Assembly (NCBI RefSeq): GCF_014270065.1 | Contig: NZ_JACNME010000010.1 | Coordinates: 62,001 to 126,000, forward strand | Length of the DNA stretch: 64,000 nucleotides | DNA from: Quadrisphaera sp. RL12-1S | GTDB taxonomy: Bacteria; Actinomycetota; Actinomycetes; Actinomycetales; Quadrisphaeraceae | Reading direction: 5' to 3' | In this document: piece after piece, positions 3,508 to 59,473 of the stretch | How positions within the stretch are numbered: position 1 is the stretch's first letter | Layout: every line of letters starts with the position of its first letter | Notes under the pieces: generated by a model | Told to the model about the DNA's origin: nothing | Database searches by the model: none | Seen by the model: only the letters and a program-made list of their open reading frames with translations | Program-made: the position numbers and the translations under genes

Positions 3508-4473
3508 ATGACCGCCTTCGCACTGGGCCTGCTGGGCCTAGTGCTGTCCCTCGTGGTGCCCGCGCCGCTGGCGCGCGCCCGCTGGGCGGCGGCCACCCCC
3601 CGGGCGTCGGTGGTGCTGTGGCAGGCGGTGGTGGCGGCCTCGGTGCTGAGCGCCGTCGCCGTCGTCCTCATCGCGCCCGAGGAGATCAGCGGGGCGCTCA
3701 GCGCCGGCCCGACCGCCGCCGCGTGGGGGCTGTCCGCCGCGCTGGCGGTGGCGCTGCTCATCGTCACGCGCCTGGTGGTGAGCCTGGTCGGGGTGATGCG
3801 GCGGTCGGCGGCGCGGCGCGCCCGGCACCGCGCGCTGCTGGACCTCCTCGACGACGCCGAGCGCAGCGCCGCCCTGGCCAGCGACCTCACCGCTGACCAG
3901 CGCCAGCTGCGCGTGCTCGGCGCTCCCCTGCCCCTGGCCTACGGGCTGCCGGGCCGCAGCCCCCGCGTGGTGGTGACCGACGGTGCGCTGCGGCTGCTGG
4001 ACACCGAGCAGCTGCGCGCGGTGCTGGCGCACGAGCAGGCCCACCTGGACGCCCGGCACGACGTGGTGCTGGAGTCGTTCGCGGCGTTCCACCGGGCCGT
4101 GCCGCGACCGCTGCGCAACGACCGCGCGCTCGGCGCGGTGGAGCTGCTGCTGGAGGCCGCCGCGGACGACGCCGCCCGCCGCCGCTGCGGGGGCGCGGGA
4201 CCGCTGCGCTCGGCGCTGGAGCTGCTGGGCGGCGCCGTCGACCCGGGCGTCGGCGCGCTGGCTGCCGCGGACACCGAGGCCCACCGCGCCCCCGACGACG
4301 ACGCGCTCGCCGCCCAGCGCGCCCTCCGGCTGGCCCGGCTCGCCGCGGCGCCCACCGCGCGGTGGCGCTCCGTCGGCGTCTGCGCGCTCGCCGCCGGGGT
4401 GCTCGTGCTGCCGCCGGTGGTGCTCGTGGCCCCCTGGCTCACCGACGCCCTGTCGAGGCTCCCGCTCCCCTGA
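3508..4473 (+). CDS. BlaR1-like M56-family membrane metallopeptidase
   Basis: This 321-residue protein has transmembrane segments near residues 4-20, 36-56, 70-92 and 288-310. A cytoplasmic zinc-protease motif HEQAH lies at 175-179, preceded by AVLA. A downstream Glu-rich helix (VELLLEAAADDAA, about 212-224) probably supplies the third zinc ligand. M56 proteases pair with BlaI repressors, which they inactivate. This protein lacks the large extracellular penicillin-binding sensor domain of true BlaR1, so its signal is unknown. It follows blaI by 58 bp and its stop codon abuts the first family 1 repeat box. Confidence 0.88.
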   Translation: MTAFALGLLGLVLSLVVPAPLARARWAAATPRASVVLWQAVVAASVLSAVAVVLIAPEEISGALSAGPTAAAWGLSAALAVALLIVTRLVVSLVGVMRRSAARRARHRALLDLLDDAERSAALASDLTADQRQLRVLGAPLPLAYGLPGRSPRVVVTDGALRLLDTEQLRAVLAHEQAHLDARHDVVLESFAAFHRAVPRPLRNDRALGAVELLLEAAADDAARRRCGGAGPLRSALELLGGAVDPGVGALAAADTEAHRAPDDDALAAQRALRLARLAAAPTARWRSVGVCALAAGVLVLPPVVLVAPWLTDALSRLPLP

Positions 4474-4640
4474 CCGTGATCATGGGCGTTGCGCGCACAC
4501 CCCACCGTGATCATGGGCGTTCTGCGCACAGCGAGAGGTGGCTCCCGGGATGCGCACGTCTGCACCGTGCCAGGACGAGGCCGCAGGGTCTGGACCTGTC
4601 TGGGCGGATCCGGACTCGAGGTCCTGACGGTGCGCGGAGT
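4474..4640. repeat. Composite family 1 repeat: two GTGATCATGG boxes 31 bp apart plus a degenerate GGATCCGG palindrome
   Basis: Two copies of CCGTGATCATGGGCGTT begin at 4474 and 4505, with TGATCA cores 31 bp apart, each followed by a TGCGC(A/G)CA motif. About 50-150 bp downstream come ACCGTGCCAGGACGAG and then CGGATCCGGACTCGAGG-TCCTGACGGTGCGC. These match the palindromic module seen near 31.8 and 42.3 kb in the same order. The first box starts 1 nt after the M56 peptidase stop codon. The region lies between convergent genes. Confidence 0.7.
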
Positions 4641-4735
4641 CCTGGCGATGGGCCGGCGGGGCGGTGAGGCGGTGGGGCCGTGGGGCGGTGGGGCCGCGGG
4701 GCCGTGGGGCGGTGGGGCCGTCGGGCTTCGCCGCC
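4641..4735 (+). repeat. G-run tract of imperfect GGGGCGGTGGGGCCGT units
   Basis: From about 4655 to 4720 the plus strand carries at least nine runs of three or four G separated by 2-5 bases. It is built from imperfect copies of a unit close to GGTGGGGCCGTGGGGC. No believable gene overlaps it. The pattern is compatible with G-quadruplex formation in single strands or RNA. Confidence 0.55.
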
Positions 4736-5177
4736 CCGCGGCGCTCCCCACCACCGCGCCTGCCCACCGCAACTGACCGCGGTCAGCTCCGGGGGTGACC
4801 GCGGTCAGTTGCGGCGGGCTGTTCCTGGGCCGGGACGTCCGCAGGTGACCGCGGTCAGTCGCGGGAGCGCCCGGGGCGCTGACGCCGTCGCTCGAAGGGC
4901 GGGACGGCCAGCCGGGACAGCGATGGCCGGCCGGCCGGGGCGGTCCGGGCTGGTGGGGCGGTCCGGCTCTGCCGCCCCGCGGCGCTCCCCAACACTGCGA
5001 CTCACCACCGCGACTGACCGCGGTCAGTTTCGGAGGGCTGTTCCTGGGCCGGAACGTCCGCAGGTGACCGCGGTCAGTCGCCGCTGTGCCCTCGTCCTGG
5101 GCCGCGACATCCGCAGGTGACCGCGGTCAGTCGCGGGAGCGCCCGGGGCGCTGACGCCGTCGCTCAGAGGGCGGAGG
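4736..5177. repeat. Family 2 array: six TGACCGCGGTCA palindromes and a 55-bp direct duplication
   Basis: Perfect TGACCGCGGTCA palindromes start at 4774, 4796, 4846, 5015, 5065 and 5118, with spacings of 22, 50, 169, 50 and 53 bp. Several are preceded by CTGGGCCGGGACGTCCGCAGG. A 55-bp block is repeated exactly at 4839-4893 and 5111-5165. The unit CGCCGCCCCGCGGCGCTCCC is also repeated (about 4730 and 4971). The array lies between convergent genes and holds no believable ORF. A second array in inverse orientation lies at 59315-59473. Confidence 0.7.
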
Positions 5178-5282
5178 CGGCCAGCTCAACCGGCCAGCTC
5201 AACCGGCCAGCGACGACCGCCAGCCGACGCTGCCAGCGGCGACAGCCAGCCGACCCTGCCAGCGGCGACAGCCAGCCGGGAC
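5178..5282. repeat. Short tandem repeats: 13 bp x2 and 26 bp x2
   Basis: CGGCCAGCTCAAC occurs twice in tandem (5178-5203). A 26-bp unit starting TGCCAGCGGCGACAGCC occurs twice (5231-5282). The adjoining stretch CAGCCGGGACATCGACGGCC resembles one near 4911. No gene is seen in this part of the gap. Confidence 0.65.
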
Positions 5283-5326
5283 ATCGACGGCCGGCCGGCC
5301 GGGGCGATCAGGGCCGGGTGCGGCGG

Positions 5327-6022
5327 TCAGCGGAGCACGTAGCGCTGCAGGTCGCGCAGCGTCTGGTCCATGTGCGACTCCATGGCGGCCCGCGACGCTG
5401 CGGCGTCGCCGTCGCGCAGCGCGTCGAGCACGCCGGCGTGCTCGGCGATGGCGTGGACCTGCACCGGCTCGTGCTGCGAGGTCTCGTGGCGGCGCGCGCG
5501 CAGCACGGCGGACAGCGGCCCGAGCAGCACCGCCACGAACGGGTTGCCGGAGGCGTGGAGCACCACGTCGTGGAAGGCGATGTCCGCCGCCACGAACGCC
5601 TCGACGTCGCCCCCGTCGTGGGCGGTGCGCATGGCGGCGAGGTGCCGCTCCAGCTCGGCGAGGTCGTGGTCGGTGCGGTGGGCGGCCGCGAGCTCGGCGG
5701 CCCCCGTCTCCACCATCCGCCGCAGCTGCAGCAGGTGCAGCGGGGCGTCGGCGCCGCCGGAGCGGTCGTGCACGTGGGCGACGGCGCGGATCGAGCTCCA
5801 CTGGGCCGTCGGCCGCACGCGCGTGCCGCGCCCGCGCTCGACCTCGACCACGCCCTGCGCCTGGAGCACCTTCAGCGCCTCGCGCAGCGTGAGGCGGCTG
5901 ACCTCGTTCTCCTCGGCCAGCTCCGCCTCGGGCGGCAGCAGCTCACCCGGCGGCGTGCGCCCGTCAGCGACGCGCTCCAGGAGCGCGGCCACCACGACGT
6001 CGACCAGGGACTCGCGCGCCAA
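5327..6022 (-). CDS. GntR-family (FadR/FCD) transcriptional regulator
   Basis: This 231-residue protein has an N-terminal winged helix (about residues 5-70, with LPPEAELAEENEVSRLTLRE and a wing ending VERGRGTRVRP). An FCD ligand-binding domain follows. It contains FVAADIAFHDVVLHASGN and HAGVLDALRDGDAAASRAAMESH, the usual metal- and acid-binding helices. FCD regulators normally respond to small carboxylic acids. It is the last gene of a three-gene minus-strand operon with a dehydrogenase and a kinase for four-carbon acid sugars, 66 bp after the dehydrogenase, so it is probably the local acid-responsive repressor. Confidence 0.88.
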   Translation of the reverse strand: MARESLVDVVVAALLERVADGRTPPGELLPPEAELAEENEVSRLTLREALKVLQAQGVVEVERGRGTRVRPTAQWSSIRAVAHVHDRSGGADAPLHLLQLRRMVETGAAELAAAHRTDHDLAELERHLAAMRTAHDGGDVEAFVAADIAFHDVVLHASGNPFVAVLLGPLSAVLRARRHETSQHEPVQVHAIAEHAGVLDALRDGDAAASRAAMESHMDQTLRDLQRYVLR

Positions 6023-55569: not shown

Positions 55570-55668
55570 GTCGGCTCGTCGGCTCGCAGATGACAGGACG
55601 CCGACGTCCACCTGGGAGCAGACCGGTCTCGGCGCGCGGATCACGTCACGTGGGACCACGCTTCGAGG

Positions 55669-55827
55669 ATGAAGATCCTGCTGATCATCCTGTGCTTCTT
55701 CTTCCCGTTCATCGCGGTGCTCATCAAGGACGGCCTGAGCCCCCGCGTGCTCATCGCCTTCCTGCTGCAGCTGCTGGGCCACATCCCGGGCGTGATCTAC
55801 GGGATCCTGGTCGTCACGCGCGACTGA
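55669..55827 (+). CDS. YqaE/Pmp3-family small membrane protein
   Basis: This 52-residue peptide (MKILLIILCFFFPFIAVLIK..., ending VIYGILVVTRD) has two transmembrane helices (about 2-19 and 28-48). The pattern of PFIAVLIKDGL, then LQLLGHIPGVIYGILVV, matches the Pmp3/UPF0057 group. Members affect membrane potential or salt stress in other organisms. TCGAGGATG gives a close AGG ribosome site. It stands between the DUF1028 operon and the aminotransferase gene. Confidence 0.85.
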   Translation: MKILLIILCFFFPFIAVLIKDGLSPRVLIAFLLQLLGHIPGVIYGILVVTRD

Positions 55828-55949
55828 CCTGTCGCAGCCCCGGGGCCGCCGTCTGGAGGCTGCGGGGACCACCCACCGCGGCCCGTGCGCGAGGACGGGC
55901 CGCGGGAGGCGGAGCGGGCAGCCCGAGCTCGCGTGCCAGAGTTGGTCCC

Positions 55950-57179
55950 GTGAGCAGCGCTGTCCGCCAGGCCGACCGGTTGCGCACGGTGCGCTACGAC
56001 ATCCGGGGGCCGCTGCTGCGCCGCGCCCGTGAGATCGAGGCCGCCGGACACGAGGTCATCAAGCTGAACATCGGCAACCCCGCCGCGTGGGGGCTGCACG
56101 CCCCGGACGGCGTCGTCCGAGGTCTGGTCGAGCACATCAACGACGCCGAGGGCTACAGCGACGCCCGCGGCATCCTGACCGCCCGCGAGGCGGTGTCCGA
56201 CTACTACACCGGGCGCGGCGTGATCGGCGTCGGGCCGGACCACGTGATGCTCGGCAACGGGGTCTCCGAGCTCATCGTCATGACGCTCCAGGCCCTGCTC
56301 GACCCGGGCGACCAGGTGCTGGTCCCCTCCCCCGACTACCCCCTGTGGACGGGCGCGGTGCGCCTGTCCGGCGGCACGGCCGTGCACTACCGCTGCGACG
56401 AGGAGGACGGCTGGCAGCCCGACGTCGCCGACGTCGCGGCCAAGGTCACCCCGGCCACCAAGGCGCTGGTGCTCATCAACCCGAACAACCCGACGGGCGC
56501 GGTGTACTCGCGCGAGACCCTGCTGGCCCTGCTCGACGTGGCGCGCCAGCACGGCCTGCTGGTGCTCGCCGACGAGATCTACGACCACATCCTGTTCGCC
56601 GGCGACGACGGGACCGTCGTGCACGAGCACGCCGCGGCGCTGGCGCCCGACCTCGTGGTGCTCACCCTGTGCGGGCTGTCCAAGAACCACCGCGCGGCGG
56701 GCTTCCGGTCGGCCTGGCTGGCGATCAGCGGCCCCCGCGAGCGCGCCTCCGACTACCTCGACGGCCTCGAGCTGCTGGCCAACATGCGCATGTGCCCCAA
56801 CGTGCCAGCGCAGCACGCGGTGGCCTCGGCGCTGGCCGACCGCGCGAGCATCGACCCGCTGCTGGCGCCCGGGGGCCGGCTGCGCGAGCAGCGCGACCAC
56901 GCGCTGCGCCGCCTGCGCGCCATCCCGGGCGTCTCGTGCGTGGAGCCCCGCGGGGCGCTGTACCTCTTCGCGAAGCTGGACCGCGAGGTCTACCCCGTCG
57001 ACGACGACGAGGCGCTGGTCATGGACCTGCTGAACGCCGAGCACCTGCTCGTCACGCACGGCACGGGGTTCAACCTGCCCACGCCCGACCACCTGCGGAT
57101 GGTGTTCCTGGCACCCGTCGACGTGCTGGACGACGCCGCCGACCGGCTCGAGAGGTTCCTCGCCGGCCGGCGGCGCTGA
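55950..57179 (+). CDS. Pyridoxal-phosphate aminotransferase class I (alanine aminotransferase-like)
   Basis: This 409-residue enzyme has LRTVRYDIRGPLLRRAREIEAAGHEVIKLNIGNPAAWG at the start and LINPNNPTGAVYSRETL. The PLP lysine is in LTLCGLSKNHRAAGFRSAWLA, and NMRMCPNVPAQHAVASAL follows. The sequence agrees with AlaA-type alanine/glutamate transaminases, interconverting pyruvate and alanine; the substrate is inferred. GTG 55950 may be leaderless (AGAGTT 6 nt upstream). The ohr gene converges with an 11-bp gap. Confidence 0.88.
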   Translation: MSSAVRQADRLRTVRYDIRGPLLRRAREIEAAGHEVIKLNIGNPAAWGLHAPDGVVRGLVEHINDAEGYSDARGILTAREAVSDYYTGRGVIGVGPDHVMLGNGVSELIVMTLQALLDPGDQVLVPSPDYPLWTGAVRLSGGTAVHYRCDEEDGWQPDVADVAAKVTPATKALVLINPNNPTGAVYSRETLLALLDVARQHGLLVLADEIYDHILFAGDDGTVVHEHAAALAPDLVVLTLCGLSKNHRAAGFRSAWLAISGPRERASDYLDGLELLANMRMCPNVPAQHAVASALADRASIDPLLAPGGRLREQRDHALRRLRAIPGVSCVEPRGALYLFAKLDREVYPVDDDEALVMDLLNAEHLLVTHGTGFNLPTPDHLRMVFLAPVDVLDDAADRLERFLAGRRR

Positions 57180-58787: not shown

Positions 58788-59339
58788 GTGCCCACCCAGG
58801 CCGTCGTCGACGAGCCCTCGGACCACGACGCGACAGCTGTCGGTGCGGTGCACCTGCGCTCCTGGCACGAGACCTACGACCACGCGCCGGGCCTCGACGC
58901 CGCCTGGGTGGACGAGCACGTCGGCCCCATGGCCTCACCCGCCGCCGACGAGTTCCGGCGCGCCGTCTTCGCGGCGCAGCGCGCCGACCCGTCGCGCACC
59001 CTGTACCGCGTGGCCCGGGCGGGCGGCGAGGTGGTCGGCTTCGTGCACGCCTCCGTCCAGCAGCACCAGGACGACGACGACGAGGTGCGCCTCGAGGGGC
59101 TGTACCTGCTGTGCTCCGAGCACGGGACCGGCCTGGCCGACCGGATGCTCGGCGAGGCGCTGGCCTGGGCCGGGGCTCGTGCGGTGGTGCTGGAGGCGTC
59201 ACCGCTGAGCGTGCGCTCCGTCCCGTTCTACCGACGGCACGGCTTCGAGCCGACCGGCGAGACGGGCCTGTTCCGGGACCGCGTGCCCACCGTGTCTCTG
59301 CGCCGCGCCGCCCCTGACCGCGGTCGGCCGCGGACCTGA
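58788..59339 (+). CDS. GNAT-family N-acetyltransferase
   Basis: This 183-residue protein has VGAVHLRSWHETYDHAPGLDAAWVDEHVGPMA, VVGFVHASVQQHQDDDDEVRLEGLYLL and HGTGLADRMLGEALAWAG (acetyl-CoA loop). SPLSVRSVPFYRRHGFEPTGET closes the fold. GTG 58788 has AGGAGG 7 nt upstream. The last codons (AAPDRGRPRT) and the stop are made by two family 2 boxes, so the repeat seems to have extended or replaced the gene's natural end. Confidence 0.8.
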   Translation: MPTQAVVDEPSDHDATAVGAVHLRSWHETYDHAPGLDAAWVDEHVGPMASPAADEFRRAVFAAQRADPSRTLYRVARAGGEVVGFVHASVQQHQDDDDEVRLEGLYLLCSEHGTGLADRMLGEALAWAGARAVVLEASPLSVRSVPFYRRHGFEPTGETGLFRDRVPTVSLRRAAPDRGRPRT

Positions 59340-59473
59340 CCGCGGTCACCTGCGGACGTCCCGCCCCAGGACCACCTCCCCGCCGGACCTGACCGCGGTC
59401 ACCTGCGGACGTCCCGCCCCAGGACCACCCCGCCGGAACTGACCACGGTCACCTCTGCAACTGACCTCGGTCA
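59315..59473. repeat. Family 2 array, inverse orientation
   Basis: TGACCGCGGTC(A/G)-type palindromes start at 59315, 59337, 59390, 59440 (TGACCACGGTCA) and 59462 (TGACCTCGGTCA), with spacings of 22, 53, 50 and 22 bp. CTGCGGACGTCCCGCCCCAG follows the second and third boxes. It is the reverse complement of the flank in the 4.8-kb array. The array lies between convergent genes and supplies the stop of the acetyltransferase gene. Confidence 0.8.

Follow-up and report, generated by a model that had tools for sequence, protein, structure and literature searches.

What are the short palindromic boxes that stand in arrays between genes of Quadrisphaera sp. RL12-1S, and what might such arrays do? Two of the arrays lie in the window, the 64,000-nucleotide stretch that we analyzed (C10:62001-126000 of genome G000, which comprises 4.62 Mb in 27 contigs). 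The box is a 12-letter palindrome with the relaxed pattern TGACCNNGGTCA and the exact form TGACCGCGGTCA. At up to two mismatches, 19 matches were found in the window, compared with 8.05 +/- 3.15 in shuffled sequences, and none of 100 shuffles reached 19. The genome-wide count that an earlier, sequence-only reading had proposed gave 25 exact TGACCGCGGTCA boxes (reversed control, 0) and 89 TGACCNNGGTCA boxes (control pattern, 1). Genome statistics were obtained by pattern searches, with about 50 positions per genome among the matches listed. The features of the two arrays and their surroundings are as follows.

3508 to 4473, plus strand: M48-family peptidase-like gene, left convergent neighbour of array 1
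4582 to 5322, no strand: segment without a counterpart in the gap of sister species G001 (approximate; boundaries set by eye from the sequences)
4774 to 4807, plus strand: inverted 22-bp pair of two TGACCGCGGTCA boxes, whose complementary outer arms CCGCAAC/GTTGCGG make a long hairpin
4808 to 4857, minus strand: 38-bp spacer followed by box 3 at 4846 (50-bp step), with a CCCAGGA-type motif on the minus strand
5015 to 5129, minus strand: boxes 4 to 6 (5015, 5065 and 5118; steps 50 and 53), a local copy of the first half that has diverged
5327 to 6022, minus strand: GntR/FCD regulator gene, right convergent neighbour of array 1
59315 to 59473, plus strand: array 2, five boxes (two exact, three with one change) at steps 22, 53, 50 and 22
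59337 to 59339, plus strand: TGA of a box with which the GNAT acetyltransferase gene upstream (58788-59339) ends as its stop codon

Array 1 (4774-5129) consists of six exact TGACCGCGGTCA boxes starting at 4774, 4796, 4846, 5015, 5065 and 5118. From left to right the steps are 22, 50, 169, 50 and 53 bp; the sequence-only reading had the six boxes and the steps 22, 50, 50 and 53 right but had omitted the 169-bp step. The local duplication within this 4.7- to 5.2-kb array has its copies about 241 bp apart. In array 2 the boxes start at 59315, 59337, 59390, 59440 and 59462. The same reading had correctly placed five boxes there at these steps, although only two of the five are exact; the others are TGACCGCGGTCG, TGACCACGGTCA and TGACCTCGGTCA. 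Its view that the arrays are inversely oriented was confirmed, since the 4.8-kb spacer CCTGCGGACGTCCCGGCCCAGGAACAGCCCGCCGCAAC, when reverse-complemented, matches the 59.4-kb spacer CCTGCGGACGTCCCGCCCCAGGACCACCCCGCCGGAAC. A CRISPR array, which it had also excluded, needs unique spacers, and the "spacers" here are homologous to one another within and between arrays.

The consensus of the box is CTGACCNNGGTCAC (or its reverse), in which ten near-invariant letters surround a variable 2-bp centre. The box is polar, with non-complementary bounding letters: of 142 boxes, 69 are bounded by C on both sides and 48 by G on both sides, which makes 117 with the same letter before and after. Complementarity of the letters directly beside single boxes is below chance, and with these anti-complementary -1/+1 flanks the single box is not, as a rule, a long perfect hairpin. 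Neighbouring boxes mostly share the same polarity, while eight 22-bp pairs are clearly head-to-head.

The spacing of the boxes is conserved across the genus. Over 35 arrays, 96 of 107 steps are 22 bp (44 steps), 49/50 bp (44) or 53 bp (8), and 11 have other lengths. When we checked for randomness elsewhere, as the sequence-only reading had asked of its claim of conserved spacing, 46/51 steps in the own genome and 50/56 in the relatives were 22, 49, 50 or 53 bp, and the claim stands. Its equation of the steps with two and five helical turns is not supported. At 10.5 bp per turn, 22, 50 and 53 bp correspond to 2.1, 4.8 and 5.05 turns, and helical phasing was rejected because 50 and 53 bp are both common and, being 0.3 turn apart, cannot both be in phase. 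The 22-bp step arises because two 26-bp extended palindromes (arms CCGCAGG/CCTGCGG) overlap in a shared CCGG. The 50-bp step is due to a homologous spacer of 38 bp, which has the conserved motif CCCAG(G/C)A in the middle and is bordered by arm sequences. The extended palindrome as a whole spans 26-28 bp around its 12-bp core, often with imperfect arms. Spacer identity between loci averages 56% (65% within the own genome, 33% when shuffled), and from one species to another the spacer arms vary in ways that leave them able to pair, with CCTGCGG/CCGCA here and CCTGGCG/CGCCA in G004.

We also analyzed the hairpin potential of the pairs. As RNA, the 62 nt of the inverted pair at 4761-4822 fold with -54.3 kcal/mol (z of -9.7 versus shuffles), and a 121-nt stretch with an inverted 22-bp pair at locus L010 gives a fold z of -10.4. 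The outer arms of the 22-bp pairs are more complementary than all-species shuffles (z 4.2, 0/2000), whereas flank shuffling within species, on a slightly larger pair set, gave a non-significant z of 0.9; the arm pairing is therefore mostly species consensus and not pair-by-pair covariation. One orthologous hairpin carries a two-sided change from C-G to T-A (gaCgcagc/gctgcGtc in L008, gaTgcagc/gctgcAtc in L098), and in the orthologous hairpin of L010 and L110 the arms do not stay complementary. An Rfam search of 4400-5400 returned microRNA hairpin models as the best matches, far below gathering scores.

The placement of the arrays was compared with genes called by a codon-usage gene finder. All 15 own-genome arrays examined are intergenic, with 7 in convergent, 8 in tandem and none in divergent gaps. 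The relatives' arrays divide into 7 convergent, 11 tandem and 2 divergent, both divergent cases depending partly on small gene calls. Thus the convergent setting described by the sequence-only reading applies to both window arrays but is a preference, not a rule, over the 35 arrays (14 convergent, 19 tandem, 2 divergent). Against the other gaps of at least 130 bp in the own-genome loci examined, divergent gaps are avoided (Fisher p ~0.0003) and convergent gaps are enriched (p ~3e-5). For comparison, an unselected sample was taken at regular steps from contig C2 of G004 (400 kb in all); of its 102 array-free gaps of at least 130 bp, 61 are tandem, 34 are divergent and 7 are convergent. Multi-box clusters avoid coding sequence, and on this point, too, the earlier reading is not refuted. 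Single boxes lie mostly in genes; 9 of 10 sampled single TGACCNNGGTCA sites are inside genes, as chance predicts.

Across arrays, the distance from stop codon to box is short. Of 47 gene 3' ends next to arrays, 7 have the TGA of a box as stop codon, and in L100 this holds for the genes on both sides; such stops may simply reflect frames that stay open as far as the array. Those neighbouring genes that were tested are unrelated (peptidase, GntR, GNAT, LacI, SOR/SNZ and DnaJ). Like intrinsic terminators between convergent genes, the arrays offer stable hairpins near stop codons that are readable from both sides. Unlike them, they have multiple near-invariant boxes, show no U-tract by eye in the array sequences read, and are missing from most convergent gaps of the window. 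Since 10 of these 12 gaps, nearly all of them short, have no array, the array is not a general terminator.

The distribution of the family is narrow. Among 396 genomes of the order, the 22-bp pair occurs in five, all Quadrisphaera; relaxed-box counts across six Quadrisphaera genomes range from 20 to 94, and in neither of the two other listed genera of this family (G008 and G011) do boxes stand less than 300 bp apart. Among the genomes searched, the repeat family is restricted to the genus Quadrisphaera.

Within the genus, the arrays show positional conservation. In the relatives sampled, at least 9 of the 15 own arrays have an orthologous position in at least one sister species: both L005 arrays (L096), L007 (L089), L008 (L098 and L106), L009 (L099), L049 (L104), L059 (L101), L010 (L110) and the 59.4-kb array (L013). 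In such orthologous arrays the boxes are kept and the other intergenic sequence has diverged. Both boxes of the 22-bp pair of L008, L106 and L098 are identical in three species amid poorly alignable sequence, in an alignment partly anchored by the boxes themselves. The 4.7-kb array is missing from G001, where the orthologous gap is about 107 bp versus 853 bp here, and in G003 two boxes follow the same upstream gene. The protein of gene 55590-57179 is 91-94% identical (best segment) to those of Quadrisphaera granulorum, Quadrisphaera sp. INWT6 and Streptomyces sp. NP160; in the INWT6 genome arrays are numerous. The record titled Streptomyces sp. NP160 (NZ_VDMJ01000029.1, L013) is Quadrisphaera-like by gene identity and synteny. 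We also observed that in G002 the M48 peptidase gene and the GntR gene are separated by an additional gene (L082 1508-2728, minus strand), with boxes on both sides, and that similar DNA follows the M48 gene in G005 (L083).

The nearest known systems are the REP/BIME and REPIN families of Enterobacteria and Pseudomonas. REP-like repeats are usually treated in Proteobacteria, alongside RAYT transposases, and mRNA stabilisation or the binding of Pol I, gyrase or IHF are functions associated with them. Shared with the Quadrisphaera repeat are short extragenic palindromes in many copies and mosaic clusters, strong hairpins, a species-specific consensus and a preference for the ends of genes and for convergent gaps. 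REP elements are short palindromic repeats of 21-65 bases in extragenic space, often located between convergent genes (PMC1525189); the repeat studied here measures 26-28 bp, with 15/15 own arrays intergenic, and is convergent in 14/35 arrays versus 7/102 array-free G004 gaps (divergent, 2/35 versus 34/102). It differs in its sequence, its fixed 22/50/53-bp pitch and its actinomycete host, and its units are mostly same-polarity tandem, whereas REP/BIME and REPIN units alternate. A Y1/RAYT transposase (Y1_Tnp, PF01797), which the REPIN/RAYT system has, was found in 0/6 Quadrisphaera genomes, while five control genomes, including that of E. coli, gave a match, and we therefore do not file the repeat as REPIN/RAYT. 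In open-licence papers, there was no match to the box, nothing tying REPIN/RAYT to Actinobacteria and, among the titles listed, no paper on a Quadrisphaera repeat. The boxes are a REP/BIME-like, genus-restricted, polar palindromic repeat with a fixed pitch and without a Y1/RAYT transposase.

Our best guess, which could equally well prove right or wrong, is that the array serves as a 3'-end boundary element, an RNA hairpin and/or a protein-bound box, that limits read-through or protects mRNA ends. Polar palindromic repeats at gene 3' ends would then work like REP/BIME elements. Box pairs, transcribed from either side, can fold into strong hairpins, which would keep transcription of one unit from running into the next and/or protect the mRNA against decay in the 3'-to-5' direction. 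A protein may also read the boxes, as DNA or RNA, as the near-invariant letters suggest. Arrays are inherited in place, and copy number and spacer sequence would be altered by recombination or conversion between copies. Distribution, spacing, polarity, placement, hairpin potential and positional conservation are direct results of the analysis, whereas a role in termination or in protecting mRNA, a protein that recognises the boxes and the mechanism by which copies change are inferred. The near-invariant box letters and the fixed pitch favour a reading protein, and the placement and arms favour a gene-end hairpin. In favour of the boundary element are the restriction to the genus, the avoidance of divergent gaps, the short distances to stop codons, the box TGA stops, the strong folding of inverted pairs, the boxes retained in orthologous arrays, the two-sided arm change, the species-wise variation of the spacer arms and the unrelated neighbouring genes. 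Points against it are the many convergent gaps of the window that have no array, the non-significant covariation within species, the low complementarity beside single boxes, the lack of a visible U-tract and the fact that a terminator would not require a fixed 22/50 pitch. A bolder form, in which a genus-specific protein assembles on a polar 14-bp box at a 22/50-bp pitch and so creates a boundary at the ends of genes or a roadblock to transcription there, seems to us unlikely; we know of no such protein-assembled class of 3'-end insulator in any actinomycete.

Alternatively, the boxes are DNA sites of a dimeric protein that loads side by side at 22/50 bp and thereby forms a structure at gene ends that acts as a nucleoid element, an insulator or a roadblock, a reading that we regard as possible but doubtful; a nucleoid protein, as the sequence-only reading had suggested, is one possibility. 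The ten near-invariant letters that enclose the variable 2-bp centre, with a sharp -1/+1 edge in 117/142 boxes, would suit such sites, as would a pitch held while spacers of different loci are only about 56% identical and an uneven array distribution (five in 65 kb of C1, p ~0.004, post hoc). Substitution-only divergence would likewise preserve spacer length, however, the frequent steps of 50 and 53 are mutually out of helical phase, no candidate protein was found, and the arrays showed no association with dnaA or with a switch in GC skew. Sites such as matS (MatP) and parS (ParB) are clustered sites of nucleoid or chromosome-organising proteins. The Quadrisphaera boxes resemble these in being palindromic, repeated and regularly spaced, but they have no candidate protein, show no tie to the origin or a replication arm, and are concentrated at gene 3' ends.

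Somewhat less probable is a palindromic repeat that is selfish or neutral and does nothing for the host, having been spread by a trans-acting transposase or recombinase and purged from genes and promoters by selection. It would agree with a copy number that varies between 20 and 94 among the Quadrisphaera genomes and with one array missing in a sister species, and avoidance of promoters and coding sequence would suffice for the observed placement. However, no Y1/RAYT transposase is present in the six genomes, and at least 9/15 arrays orthologously placed with their boxes retained exceed what is expected of freely turning-over repeats. That the boxes are operators of a regulator controlling neighbouring promoters is very improbable: they are palindromic, and a GntR gene lies beside array 1 and a LacI gene beside another array, but divergent promoter regions are nearly avoided (2/35) and the neighbour genes are functionally unrelated. 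Here a family found throughout an actinomycete genus has conserved positions, box letters and pitch although no Y1 transposase is present; it makes a natural test of whether such repeats are domesticated elements of gene ends, because several sister species carry orthologous arrays in differing states (present, altered or absent).

Regional clustering of arrays was observed at G000 C1:36.8-100.7 kb and at G004 C2:378-492 kb. A link to the replication origin or terminus was not seen: dnaA is on C19 in the own genome and on C5 in G004 and not on the contigs with clusters, and GC skew does not switch across G004 C2.

Two other repeats accompany the boxes. A 51-nt repeat with GGCCGGCCGGCCGGGGCG lies between the halves of array 1 (4903-4953) and, 88% identical, again after the array (5267-5317). 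A second dispersed repeat, CCGTGATCATGG(GCGTT), is often paired 31-32 bp apart; in the window it is found at 4474, 4505, 29135, 29167, 42207, 42238 and eight more sites, and it is present too in loci L011, L048 and L059. At 4474-4521 it stands next to the box family.

Among viral contigs, the 22-bp pair gave three matches, two of them near-identical and one in 76% GC DNA. At L112 3712-3745 and L113 10865-10898 (51-52% GC), TGACCACGGTCA/TGACCGTGGTCA stand 22 bp apart, the same step as in Quadrisphaera, but their flanks differ from the Quadrisphaera ones.
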